The notes below the pieces were generated by a model that saw nothing but the letters and a program-made list of their open reading frames with translations, ran no database searches and was not told the origin of the DNA. From Yoonia maricola (GTDB lineage: Bacteria; Pseudomonadota; Alphaproteobacteria; Rhodobacterales; Rhodobacteraceae), in the NCBI RefSeq assembly GCF_002797915.1, contig NZ_PGTY01000001.1, forward strand, positions 992,001 through 1,056,000: DNA of 64,000 nucleotides. Reading direction: 5' to 3'. Positions within the stretch are counted from its first letter, which is position 1. Each line of letters starts with the position of its first letter. The position numbers and the translations under genes were made by a program. Shown one piece after another: positions 10,395 through 16,163 of the stretch.

Positions 10395-10506
10395 CAGACC
10401 CCCACCAATGTCCACAACATACGCATCTCTCCCTTGAGGGTTCTGCCCCGGCCCCTTATGACGCGTCGGGAATCCTCTGCCCACCCCCGACATAAGGTGC
10501 TTGCCC

Positions 10507-11814
10507 ATGATCCCTCGCTATTCTCGCCCGGAAATGACTGCAATCTGGGAGCCGGCCACGAAATTTCGCATCTGGTACGAGATCGAGGCCCATGCATGTG
10601 ACGCGCAAGCAGCGCTCGGCGTGATCCCGAAAGAGAACGCCGAAGCAGTATGGAAAGCCAAGGATGTTGAATTCGACGTCGCCCGCATTGATGAAATCGA
10701 AGCAGTCACCAAACACGACGTCATCGCATTTCTAACGCACCTCGCCGAACATATCGGATCAGACGACGCCCGTTTCGTGCATCAGGGCATGACATCGTCA
10801 GACGTGCTCGATACAACACTGAATGTCCAACTGGTCCGTGCCGCTGACCTGTTGATCGCAGATATGGACCGCGTGCTCGCGGCTCTAAAGACCCGCGCTT
10901 ACGAACACAAAGACACCGTCCGCATTGGGCGCAGCCACGGAATTCACGCCGAACCAACAACAATGGGCCTGACCTTCGCCCGTTTCTACGCAGAGATGGA
11001 CCGGGGCCGTGCGCGCCTGGTGAACGCCCGCGAAGAAATCGCCACCGGTGCCATCTCTGGTGCCGTCGGTACCTTCGCCAATATCGACCCATCAGTCGAA
11101 GAACACGTCTGCGCGCAACTGGGCCTCTCGCCCGAGCCGATCAGCACGCAGGTTATCCCCCGCGACCGCCATGCGATGTTCTTTGCGACATTAGGTGTCA
11201 TCGCCTCCAGCATTGAAAACATCGCGACCGAAATCCGGCATATGCAACGGACCGAAGTGCTGGAAGCGGAAGAGTTCTTCTCTAAAGGCCAAAAGGGGTC
11301 GTCTGCTATGCCGCACAAACGCAACCCTGTGCTGACCGAAAACCTGACCGGTCTTGCCCGTCTGGTTCGCATGTCCGTGGTGCCCGCGATGGAAAACGTA
11401 GCCCTCTGGCACGAGCGTGACATCAGCCACTCATCTGTCGAACGCGCGATTGGCCCGGATACGACCGTCACACTGGACTTTGCCTTGAACCGCCTTGCAG
11501 GCGTTGTCGAAAAATTAGTAATTTACCCCGATAACATGCTGGCAAACATGAATAAATTCCGTGGGCTAATCATGTCCCAGCGGGTTCTCTTGGCCCTGAC
11601 CCAAGCAGGCGTCAGCCGCGAAGATGCCTATAAACTGGTGCAACGCAACGCAATGAAAGTCTGGGAACAAGGAGCCGATTTTAAAACCGAGCTCCTTGCT
11701 GATGGGGATGTTTTAGACGCACTTTCCCCGGCAGAGATCGAGGAAAAATTCGATCTCGGGTATCACATGAAAAACGTTGATACGATTTTTGCGCGCGTCT
11801 TTAAGACACACTAG
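10507..11814 (+). CDS. purB: Adenylosuccinate lyase
   Basis: A 435-residue enzyme of the fumarase/aspartase superfamily. PurB performs two steps of purine synthesis: cleavage of SAICAR to AICAR and of adenylosuccinate to AMP, each releasing fumarate. The superfamily signature GSSAMPHKRNP is intact, as are HQGMTSSDVLDT and GRSHGIHAEPTT, which carry catalytic His and substrate contacts. The start MIPRYSRPEM at ATG 10507 is the usual N-terminus of this enzyme. Confidence 0.97.
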   Translation: MIPRYSRPEMTAIWEPATKFRIWYEIEAHACDAQAALGVIPKENAEAVWKAKDVEFDVARIDEIEAVTKHDVIAFLTHLAEHIGSDDARFVHQGMTSSDVLDTTLNVQLVRAADLLIADMDRVLAALKTRAYEHKDTVRIGRSHGIHAEPTTMGLTFARFYAEMDRGRARLVNAREEIATGAISGAVGTFANIDPSVEEHVCAQLGLSPEPISTQVIPRDRHAMFFATLGVIASSIENIATEIRHMQRTEVLEAEEFFSKGQKGSSAMPHKRNPVLTENLTGLARLVRMSVVPAMENVALWHERDISHSSVERAIGPDTTVTLDFALNRLAGVVEKLVIYPDNMLANMNKFRGLIMSQRVLLALTQAGVSREDAYKLVQRNAMKVWEQGADFKTELLADGDVLDALSPAEIEEKFDLGYHMKNVDTIFARVFKTH

Positions 11815-11865
11815 GATTAGCTACCCGGCACAATCAATGCTGCGCTGGCTGCTGTGATGCCGATG

Positions 11866-12561
11866 TTAGATCTTTGACGGCGCATGCACAGCGTTTTGCT
11901 GCACCACATATGTGGGCCGAGACAGACTAGCGGCCTGATTCGTTGCGGCATCTGTTTGATCTGACGTTTTTGCACGGATGCCAGCAATCTTACCCTTCAT
12001 CGCGACATACTTACGATTGTCATGCGCGTTAATGTAAGGTTCGCCGATCGGATAAACCGGGTAGCCAAGCTGGCGCATCGTCCGCGCGAACACCGGTGGA
12101 CATAGCGCCATAATCTCGGTCCCGCCATGTTCACGTGCCTGCGACACCACACCATCCAGCAGCATGCCCAAACATGCCGACCGTTCCGCATGCGTTTTGA
12201 TATCTTCAGAGATAACGATACGCGTCGCTTCCCAGACTGTCGGTGTCACTTCCGCCGCTGGCAGAATATCGGCTGGAATGCCGATCAGTTTCCCATCAAC
12301 CGCATCACGCAACATATAGGTATGTGAGCCCCATTGCGCTGTTGTGGCCATCGTACGCATGCCGCCAACGACCTTTCCGTCCTTCACAACAAGCGAGTAA
12401 TACGCCTTTGGGTTGTCATATTGATCCATCTCGACATCATCATCATGCGGAATGTCCCAACCAAGCTGATCCACAAAAAATTGTTTGCGCAGTGCAAGAA
12501 ATTCAAAGAACGCAGATCCATGCTTGTGAAGCTCTGTCAGGTTAAAAGTGATATTCTCCAT
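11866..12561 (-). CDS. luxI: Acyl-homoserine lactone synthase, LuxI family
   Basis: A 231-residue LuxI-type synthase making an N-acyl-homoserine lactone from S-adenosylmethionine and an acyl carrier (acyl-ACP or acyl-CoA). All the family invariant residues can be placed: R25, F29, W35, E44, D46, D49, R69, and later E111 and R114 in WEATRIVI. The C-terminal ~35 residues beyond the fold are unconserved. ATG 12561 follows AGAGGGAAC. The gene lies downstream of luxR on the same strand, separated by 123 bp with a hairpin. Acyl-chain length cannot be predicted. Confidence 0.93.
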   Translation of the reverse strand: MENITFNLTELHKHGSAFFEFLALRKQFFVDQLGWDIPHDDDVEMDQYDNPKAYYSLVVKDGKVVGGMRTMATTAQWGSHTYMLRDAVDGKLIGIPADILPAAEVTPTVWEATRIVISEDIKTHAERSACLGMLLDGVVSQAREHGGTEIMALCPPVFARTMRQLGYPVYPIGEPYINAHDNRKYVAMKGKIAGIRAKTSDQTDAATNQAASLSRPTYVVQQNAVHAPSKI

Positions 12562-12615
12562 AGTGTTCCCTCTGGTTGTAGCGTGAGTAATGGCGGCCCC
12601 CGTCGCCGAAAAAGC

Positions 12616-12634
12616 CGACGGTACCGCACCGTCG
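12616..12634. promoter_or_regulatory. Hairpin/dyad between luxR and luxI
   Basis: CGACGGT-ACCGC-ACCGTCG is a 19-bp dyad with perfect 7-bp arms. Read on the minus strand it is followed by GGCTTTTTC, so it could terminate or attenuate luxR transcription before luxI. Its size and position about 55-75 bp upstream of the luxI ATG would equally suit a lux-box-like LuxR operator. The two readings cannot be separated here. Confidence 0.5.
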
Positions 12635-12684
12635 ACAATTTAGCTCTAATTGTTCAGAAGAAAGAAAAAAAGGCTTATGTTTTC

Positions 12685-13293
12685 TCAGATTAAGCCGTAC
12701 TGATTCGCCAGCGTAGCAGCTTGAGTGCTCGTTTTTGCGGCAAGTTTTAACTTAGCATTCCTAAGGCGCTGCTTGACCGCCCCCTCGCTAACGCTCAACT
12801 CAAAGGCGATTTGCTTGAGACGCTTGCCGTCTTTCACCATGCCCAAAGCCTCTAGTTCCGCCTTGGTCAAATTGGTGGGTGGTGCCGTATCATTGTGGCG
12901 GCGAGTGAGATAGGCTTGAAACAGCTTGATTTCCAGAGCGGTGTATTCACGGTCTGATCGCGTAAAAGATGCAAATGACCTCTGCGCGTCCGCGCTGCTG
13001 TCGAAGACCGAAACTGATACGCCATATGCCATGCCAAACGTCTTGGCTTGGGCAAGAATACCCTTTGGATCATCCACTGGAAACTCACTCCAGCGTACTG
13101 CACCGACGTTCGCATAAGACCATCTAAGCACCGGGTCAAAAAGGGCAAACCGCTGCTTTGTATAGTGGCTTACCCAATCAGGACGTAGCTCGTTGATTTC
13201 TTCCATGGGGAAGGCAAACCCTATGCGCAACGCAATATAGTGGCCTGACGGGGCAAGTTGCCCTATCTCATCCAGACCAAGAAGTTTCGACAT
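12685..13293 (-). CDS. luxR: LuxR-family quorum-sensing transcriptional regulator
   Basis: A 202-residue regulator with an N-terminal autoinducer-binding domain (residues ~10-130, with the spaced W/Y/D/P/W residues of the family in RPDWVSHY, LFDPVLRW and VRWSEF) and a C-terminal LuxR-type helix-turn-helix (residues ~140-200, KAELEAL...LKQIAFELSVSEGAVKQRL). It is expected to bind the signal made by the adjacent luxI product and control luxI. ATG 13293 has a GAGGA ribosome site. It is slightly shorter than typical LuxR proteins (about 240), mainly at the N-terminus. Divergent from the HTH-less homologue at 13434. Confidence 0.92.
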   Translation of the reverse strand: MSKLLGLDEIGQLAPSGHYIALRIGFAFPMEEINELRPDWVSHYTKQRFALFDPVLRWSYANVGAVRWSEFPVDDPKGILAQAKTFGMAYGVSVSVFDSSADAQRSFASFTRSDREYTALEIKLFQAYLTRRHNDTAPPTNLTKAELEALGMVKDGKRLKQIAFELSVSEGAVKQRLRNAKLKLAAKTSTQAATLANQYGLI

Positions 13294-13381
13294 TCAAAAT
13301 CCTCAAGAGAGCCTCCCTTCAGAAAAGCTCTTGTTAGCCCGACCTAGTTGCATTTAAACTTAGTCGACACATAGTCCCGCC

Positions 13382-13387
13382 TATAAT
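13382..13387 (+). promoter_or_regulatory. Perfect -10 box in the luxR / solo divergent region
   Basis: TATAAT stands 46 bp before the ATG of the HTH-less autoinducer-binding gene. The hexamer 17 bp upstream (CTTAGT) is a poor -35, which suits a promoter that needs an activator. The region upstream also holds GTCGAC. Confidence 0.4.
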
Positions 13388-13433
13388 ATTTGTTTATTAC
13401 GCAGCTTGGCAACCGGAAAGCGAGTTGGACGAT

Positions 13434-13922
13434 ATGAGTTCTGCACAATTTGAGATCAGCGAAGCACTTGGGCAACTACATGAGATCGCAAACGCGGGAT
13501 ACGCACTCGGCTTCCATATCGAGTACACGACCCCGAAATTTGTCTTTCAGACGTATCCCAAAGCATGGTTGGATTATTATTCCAGCAACGGATTGATCAT
13601 GAACGATCCGATGGTGGCATGGGGTTTTGAAAACACCGGCAACCAAAAATGGTCAGACCTGGAAGACCCTGCTGGCGTGCTGGAAAAGGCGACGGAATAC
13701 GGGATGAAGTTCGGGGTTGTGATTGCCGTGGCCTCTGGCGACAGCCGCAGCATTGGTGGTTTCGCTCACCCTGACCGCGAATTCACCCCAGAAGAGGTTG
13801 CGCAGATCGAAGCAATCACGACGCGCATTCACGAAAACACCGCCGAGACAGCCCGTCTTGAAGATGAAACTGTCGAGCAACTAAAAAAAATGTCTGTTAT
13901 GGTGACCCATCCGGGATCATAG
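13434..13922 (+). CDS. Stand-alone autoinducer-binding protein lacking DNA-binding domain
   Basis: A 162-residue protein consisting only of a LuxR-type autoinducer-binding domain. The signal-pocket pattern is preserved: W45, Y49, D58-P59, W73 and the FGMKF-GV stretch align with the neighbouring LuxR. After about residue 145 it ends in a charged helix where the HTH should begin; no frameshifted HTH was found downstream. Such truncated receptors can sequester signal or form inactive heterodimers with full-length LuxR (as known for TrlR versus TraR), but the role here is inferred. ATG 13434 is chosen; a TTG at 13425 is possible. It is followed 47 bp later by a FliG-like gene. Confidence 0.82.
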   Translation: MSSAQFEISEALGQLHEIANAGYALGFHIEYTTPKFVFQTYPKAWLDYYSSNGLIMNDPMVAWGFENTGNQKWSDLEDPAGVLEKATEYGMKFGVVIAVASGDSRSIGGFAHPDREFTPEEVAQIEAITTRIHENTAETARLEDETVEQLKKMSVMVTHPGS

Positions 13923-13969
13923 GCGATACAAGTAACCGATATTTAACATTATTTTATGCATGCTAGGGT

Positions 13970-15025
13970 ATGGATACACTGGCATCTTTATCCCCCGCAA
14001 CCACACTGACCCGCCGGCGTAAGGCCGCCATGGTTGTACAAATGCTGCTTGACGATGGCGGTTCACTTCCACTGGGGCAGCTTCCGGCGTCTTTGCAACT
14101 TCTCTTAACTGAAGAACTTGGATCGTTGCGGCTGATCGATAAAGGAACCGTATCAGCCGTTGCCGAAGAATTCACAGCCGAGCTTGAGGCGGTTGGCCTT
14201 ACCGCACCAGGCACACGCGATGGGGCGATCACCACGCTGGCCGATCATCTTAGCCCAGACATCGCAAGCAATTTGCGCAACCAACTGGCCAGCGTGCGCA
14301 ATGGCGACCATTGGCCCATCGTGGTTGAGTTAAGCATTGAGCGGATTACCGCCATCATGCTCGCCGAAAGCACGGCAATCTGTGCCGTAACCCTGTCAAA
14401 GCTTCCGGTTGCAAAAGCCGCAGAAGTGCTGTCGCACACACCCGGCGAACGCGCACGACGAATCACATATGCGATGTCCCAAACCGAAAGCATCCCACCC
14501 GATACCGTGCGACGGATCGGGGCCGCCTTGGCACAACAATACGGGCATCCTGCGGATCTGGCCTTTGAAAAGGCACCGGTCCAACGACTCGGCGCGATCC
14601 TGAACTCCACCATGACTGATACACGCGAAGATGTGCTGACCGGCCTGAACCAAGAGGACGCCGAATTCGCAACAGATGTGCGCAAGGCCATCTTCACTTT
14701 CAAAGATATCGCACCGCGGGTCAAACCAACCGACATTCCCAACACCATCCGCAACGTGGACGGTGATGTGCTGCTAACGGCCATAGCAGCCGCGCTGAAA
14801 GGGGATGACGCACTTGTGGCATCGGCCGAATTCATACTCAACAGTGTGTCTCAACGGATGGCAACCCAACTGCGCGAAGACGCGGAAGAGCGTGGGGCCA
14901 TCAAGAAAGCCGACGCCGAAAAGGCAATGGCCGCAATCACGACCGCCATTCGCGAAATGGCAGATGCTGGGGTGATCACACTGATCGACCCCGATGAGAC
15001 AGACGAGGACGACAGCGGGACCTAG
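13970..15025 (+). CDS. FliG-like flagellar motor switch homologue (orphan)
   Basis: A 351-residue protein that resembles FliG along its length. An N-terminal KAAMVVQMLLDDG block with alternating hydrophobic helices corresponds to FliG-N. The C-terminal half has LGAILNSTM, AIFTFKDIAPRV, DIPNTIRNVDGD and ALKGDD-like stretches matching the FliG middle/C domains and torque helix. Relative to FliG, a few residues appear inserted before ALKG. FliG couples MotA force to rotor rotation. No other flagellar gene is in the window, so this is an orphan copy beside quorum-sensing genes. It ends in an acidic tail (DPDETDEDDSGT). The ribosome site is poor. It may be a divergent paralogue rather than the motor FliG. 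Confidence 0.65.
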   Translation: MDTLASLSPATTLTRRRKAAMVVQMLLDDGGSLPLGQLPASLQLLLTEELGSLRLIDKGTVSAVAEEFTAELEAVGLTAPGTRDGAITTLADHLSPDIASNLRNQLASVRNGDHWPIVVELSIERITAIMLAESTAICAVTLSKLPVAKAAEVLSHTPGERARRITYAMSQTESIPPDTVRRIGAALAQQYGHPADLAFEKAPVQRLGAILNSTMTDTREDVLTGLNQEDAEFATDVRKAIFTFKDIAPRVKPTDIPNTIRNVDGDVLLTAIAAALKGDDALVASAEFILNSVSQRMATQLREDAEERGAIKKADAEKAMAAITTAIREMADAGVITLIDPDETDEDDSGT

Positions 15026-15044
15026 GAGGAGCCGGGGACATCAG

Positions 15045-15110
15045 ATGGCTTTGGCGTTTCCATTGAAACTCGACCAAAGCGGGGAGCGCAATCCTTGGGG
15101 CAACTTGTGA
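15045..15110 (+). CDS. Short ORF after the FliG-like gene, possible remnant
   Basis: A 21-codon frame beginning MALAFPLKLDQ follows GGGGAC at a good spacing, 19 bp after the FliG-like stop codon. It then meets TGA. It may be the start of a degraded downstream gene or a leader peptide; nothing recognisable continues in other frames. Confidence 0.2.
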   Translation: MALAFPLKLDQSGERNPWGNL

Positions 15111-15167
15111 CGAAAGTTGAGAGAACCCATATCGACAAGTGCTGCTGCATATCAAAAGGGCTGCTTT

Positions 15168-16163
15168 CTATTCGCGGGAAGAATTCAGTGGACCAATCAA
15201 TTCAATACGGTTTGTCCAAATGTATCCATCAAACGCCTCTGGCACCTCGCGAAAACTGTCTGCATCATCGATACCACTTGAGAATCCTGAACCATCATTG
15301 GCTCCGGCAAGAATGACATCTGTTCCGACGGATTTGAGACGACGCGTAAACCGGTGCGGCCATCCCCATAGGAATCTTGCATAGTTCTGAGGAATCAGAA
15401 CGATTGTGTTGTGACAGCTCTCTGGTACATACCCGCTCCAACCCAATGCGAGATAGCGGATCAGGCAGGCTTCCAACGACGATCGGTCAAAGCCTCGGAG
15501 ATCGGGCGTCGCTTCAATCGCGATGCGTGTTGGTCGCTGTCCACCGTAGACGCCATAGACTTTATCACGCACCTCTGAACGCTCCAGTATCGCGGCGAGC
15601 GCAGCACCTTCATCACGACGTCGACTCTTGAAATTGATAAGGAATTGACCTTCCATATTCTCTTCAAAGACGCTGTCCAGCGTGGGCATTAGCCCAACTG
15701 CCTGCCCCCTAAGTGGGTAAGCTTCTGTGCCATCATCAATCCAGTACCCAACATCAAGACTTTGCAACGTCGCAAGGTTTTTCTCGTTTGTGACGCCGGT
15801 CCCATCAGTGCGGCAGTCGAGGGTCCAATCATGGAAGACGACAAACACTGAGTCTGTCGTCAGATGAACATCAATCTCAACCACGTCTGCACCCAGGCGA
15901 AATGCCTCCCGCATGGAGGGGATCGTGTTTTCAATGAAGCTGTGTTTAACCGGCGCGACAGGAGATGCATGGCAGGCATCATTCGAACGGTCAGAACCAG
16001 TATAAACCTGATTGACACCACGATGCGCAATCAAGCGCGTCTCATGCCGCTCAAGGCCAGACACAAAAAGCGATGAATTGCCAAACCACAGGCCCGCTCC
16101 GACAAGCAGGACAGCAATAGAGAGCCTTTTCAGCGTTCCGCGCATGAAGTTCAAATAGACCAT
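15168..16163 (-). CDS. Glycerophosphodiester phosphodiesterase family protein
   Basis: A 331-residue protein with an N-terminal hydrophobic segment (residues 12-35, anchor or signal) and a GDPD-type TIM barrel. Catalytic and metal motifs are LIAHRGV (His47-Arg48), ENTIPS, VVEIDVHLT and FHDWTLDRT-like FHDWTLDCRTDG. The family hydrolyses glycerophosphodiesters to glycerol 3-phosphate and an alcohol. An extra loop with cysteine (RSNDACHASPV) lies between the first His and ENTIPS. The start is uncertain: ATG 16163 or ATG 16145; neither has a strong ribosome site. Divergent from the nitrile hydratase operon. Confidence 0.82.
   Translation of the reverse strand: MVYLNFMRGTLKRLSIAVLLVGAGLWFGNSSLFVSGLERHETRLIAHRGVNQVYTGSDRSNDACHASPVAPVKHSFIENTIPSMREAFRLGADVVEIDVHLTTDSVFVVFHDWTLDCRTDGTGVTNEKNLATLQSLDVGYWIDDGTEAYPLRGQAVGLMPTLDSVFEENMEGQFLINFKSRRRDEGAALAAILERSEVRDKVYGVYGGQRPTRIAIEATPDLRGFDRSSLEACLIRYLALGWSGYVPESCHNTIVLIPQNYARFLWGWPHRFTRRLKSVGTDVILAGANDGSGFSSGIDDADSFREVPEAFDGYIWTNRIELIGPLNSSRE

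Follow-up and report, generated by a model that had tools for sequence, protein, structure and literature searches.

A conserved HTH-less relative of CerN encoded next to luxR in Yoonia maricola, a probable AHL-dependent antagonist of the adjacent LuxR

Within the window, a stretch of 64,000 nucleotides from Yoonia maricola, a quorum-sensing cluster comprises a luxI-type gene, a luxR-type gene, a gene for an HTH-less autoinducer-binding protein (hereafter solo) that is divergent from luxR, and a fliG downstream of solo (Table 1). All four genes lie where a preliminary description had placed them. That solo is HTH-less was borne out by a Pfam search, in which Autoind_bind was the only domain found and no HTH family appeared up to E = 1. 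Two start codons are available for solo, TTG 13425 and ATG 13434, and we have adopted the ATG. Since only 47 bases separate its stop at 13922 from the start of fliG on the same strand, no HTH can follow downstream in any frame, and the earlier view that solo is not a frameshifted luxR holds. An Rfam scan of positions 11000-16000 returned a single match, under its gathering score and with an E-value of 0.36.

Table 1. Features of the cluster and its flank, in window coordinates.
Feature	Position	Strand	Domain or family match
purB, adenylosuccinate lyase; cluster flank, convergent with luxI	10501..11814	+	TIGR00928, 2.9e-151
luxI-type AHL synthase, 231 aa	11866..12561	-	Pfam Autoind_synth, 1.6e-17
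luxR-type regulator, LBD and HTH, CerM-like	12685..13293	-	Autoind_bind, 4e-15; GerE, 2.5e-8
20-nt conserved block, luxR/solo intergenic region, 8 nt upstream of the solo ATG	13406..13425	+	
HTH-less autoinducer-binding protein (solo), 162 aa, putative CerN orthologue	13434..13922	+	Autoind_bind alone, 1e-14
Rhodobacteraceae-type fliG, 351 aa	13970..15025	+	Pfam FliG_N, FliG_M, FliG_C

The full AHL pocket, W57, Y61, D70, P71, W85 and G113 in TraR numbering, is present in solo, and the four residues named in the preliminary description, W45, Y49, D58 and W73, were confirmed as the counterparts of W57, Y61, D70 and W85. Among 86 distinct whole HTH-less proteins the first five positions are kept in every one and G113 in 85; note that the protein of locus L113, 192 aa long, entered as a 132-aa piece. 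The AlphaFold model of solo has a mean pLDDT of 88, and its top structural matches in the PDB are LuxR-family receptors, with TM-scores of 0.50-0.68 by query length. When the solo profile was run against the PDB, LuxR-family receptors again came up; matches to a myosin fusion and to syntaxins, with E-values of 0.01 and above, were taken as chance hits. The profile alignment of solo with the adjacent LuxR spans residues 12-152 of solo, crossing the last long helix of the LBD and reaching the first part of the HTH domain.

The comparative set was reduced from 106 loci to 86 in which the core of the HTH-less protein differs; some of the loci L058-L085 coincide in contig with named loci. As this set is skewed to Yoonia and the best-scoring genomes, shares within it are not family-wide rates. 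A divergent luxR lies within 900 bases of solo at 84 of the 86 loci, and a luxI match is found upstream on the luxR side at 79. The fliG gene follows solo at only 62, and it was not found downstream at 21 of the 82 loci where 1.4 kb or more of sequence was available. In the order luxI-luxR-solo-fliG, luxR is the constant neighbour of solo and fliG a lineage-specific one. In the flank, purB is present at 24 of 27 named loci and at just 2 of 19 wide loci of other genera, three of which (L089, L105 and L106) lack a solo. Chance does not account for the arrangement: relatives whose identity is as low as 33-35% also have luxR next to an HTH-less solo, and in most of them luxI lies on the far side of luxR. 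At least 41 genera carry the pair, a hand count over the genera whose loci were retrieved, and this breadth is newly reported here. The solo profile matches 192 of 394 genomes of the family, a figure that gives no genus count for the HTH-less gene because the profile mixes HTH-less and full-length proteins.

The layout itself is already in print, as the "topology D" luxRI layout of Roseobacter in 2013 (PMC3824088) and as the "group 4" layout fliG-[hp-abd]-luxR-asl in 2015 (PMC4338825). Both have the gene order of the Yoonia cluster, and an ABD-only protein is named at this place in the 2015 survey. Two strains in the table of PMC3824088, Roseobacter sp. CCS2 and Loktanella vestfoldensis SKA53, are our loci L032 and L041. 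In the portions of the two papers available to us these are descriptions of layout without a functional test, and they appeared before CerN was named.

We further compared the region between luxR and solo, using the 44 of 47 distinct intergenic regions that are 100-200 bases long. A 20-nt block recurs with at most five substitutions in 39 of them, 22 of these having none or one (raw counts), and an 18-nt version is found with at most four substitutions at 8 of 38 further HTH-less loci. The genome holds one copy of the block at up to three mismatches, as it does of a control pattern. The conserved 20-nt block before solo is new here. No match to the published pattern of CerM sites lies in the cluster; with one mismatch allowed, the 64-kb window has 9 matches against 6.7 expected, which is no excess. 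In 10 of 15 pairs the dN/dS ratio of solo lies at 0.03-0.16, a sign of purifying selection, and the remaining five pairs are saturated. The missing HTH might suggest a decaying luxR copy without function, but this is practically out of the question in view of 86 distinct loci, the strict pocket, the low dN/dS where computable and the conserved upstream block, which together also rule out a frameshifted copy.

The closest characterized parallel is the cerN-cerM-cerR-cerI locus of Cereibacter sphaeroides, which we recognised by gene order and by Pfam scores close to those in Table 2 of PMC11655674, in a genome (G130) with a 100% identical reaction-centre L chain. There cerN is divergent from cerM as solo is from luxR, so that both loci pair an HTH-less LBD protein with a divergent full-length LuxR and have a synthase gene beyond. 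Solo and CerN share 33% identity (102 bits) and the same WYDPWG pocket. Trees were built from 74, and then 71, of 190 distinct proteins. In the first, with CerR as root, the HTH-less proteins formed no clade and the L113 copy fell among full-length regulators. Because the CerR branch is very long, CerR and the long-branched L119 copy were dropped and unrooted splits were used. In the resulting LBD tree of 71 sequences, 30 HTH-less proteins including CerN make up one split with a UFBoot value of 87, rising to 95 once the L113 copy is removed, and 30 neighbour LuxRs including CerM make up another with 100. Common descent of solo and CerN thus has moderate support, and the adjacent luxR is, judged by sequence, the orthologue of cerM. 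Solo is an old conserved relative of CerN and hence no new kind of system. The two loci do differ: C. sphaeroides has both cerM and cerR whereas the Yoonia cluster has one luxR, the Yoonia synthase scores 64 bits for Autoind_synth against 283 for CerI, and fliG adjoins solo but not cerN.

According to the available part of a 2024 study (PMC11655674), CerN binds CerM in pull-downs only when AHL is present, AHL-loaded CerN takes CerM off DNA and weakens its DNA binding in gel shifts, and this action relieves repression of the CtrA motility pathway, ctrA itself being affected; phenotypes of cerN and cerM mutants are on record there. By analogy, solo probably antagonises its neighbour LuxR in an AHL-dependent way, by pairing with it as CerN pairs with CerM. 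AHL made by LuxI would build up and be bound by solo, and the loaded protein would pair with LuxR through the ligand-domain dimer surface common to both. With one HTH only, such a heterodimer would leave DNA or be unable to hold it, so that the joint presence of signal, solo and LuxR would switch the genes under LuxR control. One output, as in C. sphaeroides, might be relief of the repression of the CckA/ChpT/CtrA motility pathway. Solo itself, like CerN, would be an AHL receptor whose DNA-binding domain disappeared early in its history. The earlier suggestion that solo poisons LuxR by heterodimer formation thus comes near the published action of CerN on CerM (PMC11655674), whereas for Y. maricola itself we infer AHL binding, the heterodimer, its dimer surface, the target genes and the direction of the effect.

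The adjacent LuxR departs from CerM in its pocket. It has a tryptophan, W40, at the position of TraR W57, where CerM carries a phenylalanine. Among 84 neighbour LuxRs, W57 is kept in 83, and the single phenylalanine is that of CerM itself; Y61, D70 and P71 are kept in all 84, W85 in 83 and G113 in 82. In these alignments W57F is a mark of C. sphaeroides CerM and not of the CerM-type clade, a point new here, and the change, proposed to explain CerM, lacks generality. In most species the mechanism must therefore accommodate two seemingly AHL-competent pockets, and a neighbour LuxR that keeps W57 may itself bind AHL or even need it, more like TraR and TrlR. TrlR of Agrobacterium is likewise a LuxR-type protein without a DNA-binding domain that forms inactive heterodimers (PMC11655674, PMC13043044). 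A possible, if doubtful, variant of the antagonist reading follows this precedent: LuxR would need AHL to bind DNA and activate, and the dead heterodimer with AHL-loaded solo would cap the response, with the same chemistry as in CerM/CerN but the opposite sign. The intact LuxR pocket is in its favour. Read on the minus strand, moreover, the 20-nt block includes the -35-like TTGCCA of a promoter-like site for luxR, which would place the block at an activator-like position, although the promoter-like scan gave just 3 matches against 1.7 expected. Against the variant, LuxR groups with CerM, for which DNA binding has been reported in the absence of AHL (PMC11655674). TrlR is reported to be 88% identical to TraR (PMC11655674), whereas solo shares 29-32% identity with the adjacent LuxR (29% in the profile alignment) and is no near-identical copy.

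The strictly kept pocket would equally suit a protein that merely titrates AHL and sets a threshold without any protein partner, an idea raised for ABD-only proteins in PMC4338825 and also in the preliminary description. We regard such a role as improbable, as it would require neither the constant pairing with luxR nor the shared last LBD helix, and CerN has a published protein partner (PMC11655674).

The remaining proposal, that solo passes the signal to the FliG-like neighbour, has been weakened. The label is apt, as the protein has three FliG domains yet scores below the NCBI equivalog cut-off (109.9 versus 226.7 bits). EHPQ is the FliM-binding motif of FliG; in alignments to solved FliGs the Yoonia protein keeps the E at this position and has STA for HPQ. 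Homologues occur in 332 of 394 genomes of the family (E <= 1e-20), and the one in C. sphaeroides lies about 1 Mb from cerN. With FlhA matched in 310 genomes, one below the Pfam cut-off, fliG is present in 42 of 83 FlhA-less genomes (hand count; one of 84 was not located), and in species without FlhA and FliF it is under purifying selection. This retention is new here and poses a question separate from the quorum module. In location the gene resembles other Rhodobacterales fliG genes away from the flagellar cluster (PMC12363192, PMC7277832), although, as far as the accessible text of these papers goes, it is unlike them in adjoining a quorum-sensing cluster and in persisting without FlhA and FliF in some species.

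A non-transcriptional output, with AHL-loaded solo acting on FliG, would fit the shared strand, the spacing of mostly 38-185 bases in Yoonia and near kin, and the selection on fliG in species without FlhA and FliF. It would also fit a mirror-tree analysis of 26 loci, in which solo correlated with fliG given LuxR (r = 0.43, p = 0.002) and with LuxR given fliG (r = 0.34, p = 0.018), and which did not single out LuxR as the partner of solo. We nevertheless consider it very unlikely. A direct signal is unsupported because luxR and not fliG is the constant neighbour and because the two genes are far apart in C. sphaeroides; fliG is also family-wide, and swimming of Phaeobacter inhibens depends on a fliG located away from its flagellar cluster (PMC12363192). 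The pairing of solo and fliG probably reflects shared position or expression. A long shot beyond even this is that the targets of loaded solo in Yoonia and its kin include FliG in addition to LuxR, and that FliG survives in flagellum-less species as a non-flagellar quorum effector through protein contact without transcription.

With solo read as a CerN-like antagonist, CerN and CerM turn from the case of a single species into an old module across dozens of genera of the Rhodobacteraceae, one that makes many natural variants available for testing the control that a receptor without an HTH exerts over its partner.

The protein encoded by the solo gene, an autoinducer-binding protein without a helix-turn-helix (HTH) domain, matches the Pfam family Autoind_bind at 1e-14, and the profile search found no DNA-binding family in it; the neighboring LuxR has both the ligand-binding and the HTH domain. 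Among PDB structures, the AlphaFold model of the solo (mean pLDDT 88) best matched RhlR, CviR, TraR, SdiA and QscR. As the profile match to LuxR stops at residue 152, where the HTH domain begins, the truncation took away nearly the whole of this domain. Judged from the solo protein, the strain is related most closely, among named organisms, to Yoonia sp., Roseobacter sp. CCS2 and Loktanella sp.

Features of the cluster, in gene order (window positions, except in the first row)
Feature	Position	Strand	Remark
window	G000:C1:992001-1056000		genome size 3.8 Mb
purB		+	
luxI	11866-12561	-	
luxR	12685-13293	-	
20-nt block	13406-13425		just 5' of solo, recurs in intergenic regions
solo	13434-13922	+	162 aa, divergent from luxR
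fliG	13970-15025	+	

The alternative that this gene is a broken luxR is rejected; the preliminary description had already dismissed a frameshift. A first search of 36 genomes from the genus, Y. maricola counted, gave a solo-type match in 35, the pocket residues W57, Y61, D70, P71 and W85 (TraR numbering) are kept in all 86 HTH-less proteins and G113 in 85, and Nei-Gojobori dN/dS was 0.03-0.16 in 10 of 15 solo pairs, with dS saturated in the remaining five. By these sequence measures the gene is conserved and not broken. Thirty of the 35 matches were taken as loci, named genomes when scanned contributed 27 (in Yoonia, Flavimaricola, Octadecabacter, Salibaculum, Pseudooctadecabacter and others), and a family sample, with each genome represented once, supplied a further 28 that scored best; in all of these 28 the solo adjoins a divergent luxR, with luxI in 27 and fliG in 19 (inside the 1.5-kb flank). 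Over the 86 distinct loci, luxR is divergent and within 900 bases in 84, luxI lies on the luxR side in 79, and fliG lies downstream in 62; where the available sequence leaves room of 1.4 kb or more (82 loci), fliG is there in 61. The two loci without a divergent luxR at this distance, L024 and L125, have a luxR further off.

The 20-nt block occurs in 39 of 44 intergenic regions at up to five substitutions (22 of these at 0 or 1), and is the sole copy in the Y. maricola genome at up to three mismatches. Read on the minus strand, the block overlaps with the -35-like hexamer in a predicted promoter-like site of luxR, a position typical of a lux box, yet it is no palindrome.

The preliminary description had further proposed that the solo might pass its signal to the FliG-like protein. 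Family-wide, 332 of 394 genomes have a fliG homologue (E <= 1e-20) and 310 have FlhA; since by hand count fliG is found in 290 of 310 FlhA-positive and in 42 of 83 FlhA-negative genomes, it is tied to flagella, though not fully. According to PMC12363192, swimming of Phaeobacter inhibens needs a fliG outside the flagellar cluster, a possible orthologue of the window fliG. FlhA and FliF are both missing in 19 of 55 genus genomes. Sixteen of these (ten assemblies 99-100% complete, six less complete) match fliG over nearly the whole protein, one of them, G072, with a flagged stop; the other three have a partial copy, a fragment and none. With dN/dS at 0.045-0.13 in five of seven pairs of species without FlhA and FliF, and at 0.045-0.14 among seven flagellate pairs, fliG is by this measure under purifying selection in the former as in the latter. 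FliM (PF02154) was detected in only 3 of 55 genus genomes, the same three that have a second, canonical FliG; Pfam may miss a divergent FliM in the others. In the window-type fliG the HPQ of the FliM-binding EHPQ motif is replaced. A non-flagellar role of fliG is possible on these sequence grounds; retention, dN/dS, FliM and motif do not connect such a role to the solo. A mirror-tree test gave a signal for both candidate partners, LuxR and FliG. Between loci L006 and L008, from one FlhA-less and one FlhA-bearing species, fliG is 96% identical (dS 0.28), and the adjoining solo (dS 0.85) and luxR (dS 2.95) lie far above it, as if recombination had swapped the signaling genes or fliG.

In PMC3824088, topology D comprises fliG, luxRI and adenylosuccinate lyase, the table adding extra luxR genes; PMC4338825 gives the arrangement fliG-[hp-abd]-luxR solo-asl and proposes that proteins with only the autoinducer-binding domain (ABD) may sequester ligand or interact with LuxRs. 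A search of the open-access literature returned no titles or abstracts linking topology D or the ABD-only layout to the mechanism worked out in Cereibacter sphaeroides for CerN, an HTH-less LuxR homologue, and its partner CerM (PMC11655674). We recognized the C. sphaeroides genome by its reaction-centre L chain (100% identity), and the cer locus by gene order and Pfam scores near those in Table 2 of that paper: 65.7 here and 66.1 there for CerN, 46.2/40.2 and 47.5/42.9 for CerM, 128.9/61.8 and 128.1/63.4 for CerR, and 282.8 and 281.5 for CerI. In a ligand-domain tree of 71 sequences, the HTH-less proteins sampled (30, with CerN among them) fall into one split (support 87) and the neighbor LuxRs sampled (30, with CerM among them) into another (support 100); an HTH-less clade was not seen in the first tree, which included CerR as root. 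Because the two groups split separately, with CerN and CerM within them, the solo and the adjacent LuxR both seem to go back to a single ancient pair. PMC11655674 itself reports no conserved synteny of cerN and cerM in the three genomes compared there. The synthases differ in their Autoind_synth score, 283 bits for CerI of the cer locus (L088) versus 64 bits for LuxI of the window. In L088 and a further locus, L057, an additional luxR of the CerR type stands between the synthase gene and the CerM-type luxR. At 1405-1983, locus L113 codes for an HTH-less protein of 192 aa whose gene diverges from a CerM-type luxR, beyond which lies luxI; the ligand domain of this protein falls among full-length regulators in the CerR-rooted tree and joins the HTH-less proteins in the 71-sequence tree.

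According to PMC11655674, CerN pulls down CerM only when acyl-homoserine lactone (AHL) is present, CerN-AHL hinders DNA binding by CerM, and mutants without cerN show a severe drop in CtrA and in Fla2 swimming, except when cerM is lost too. By analogy we infer this mode of action for the Yoonia solo, which would bind LuxR in an AHL-dependent manner and interfere with its binding to DNA. CerM carries F at W57, which its authors consider could matter for a weaker AHL affinity (PMC11655674); the LuxR of the window, unlike CerM, keeps W, as do 83 of 84 neighbor LuxRs, CerM being the lone exception. In most loci the solo and LuxR thus both look AHL-competent from their residues, and for this reason the solo effect could have either sign: a CerM-like release of a LuxR that binds DNA without AHL, or a block of an AHL-activated LuxR like that by TrlR, the Agrobacterium LuxR-type protein without DNA-binding domain that forms inactive heterodimers.
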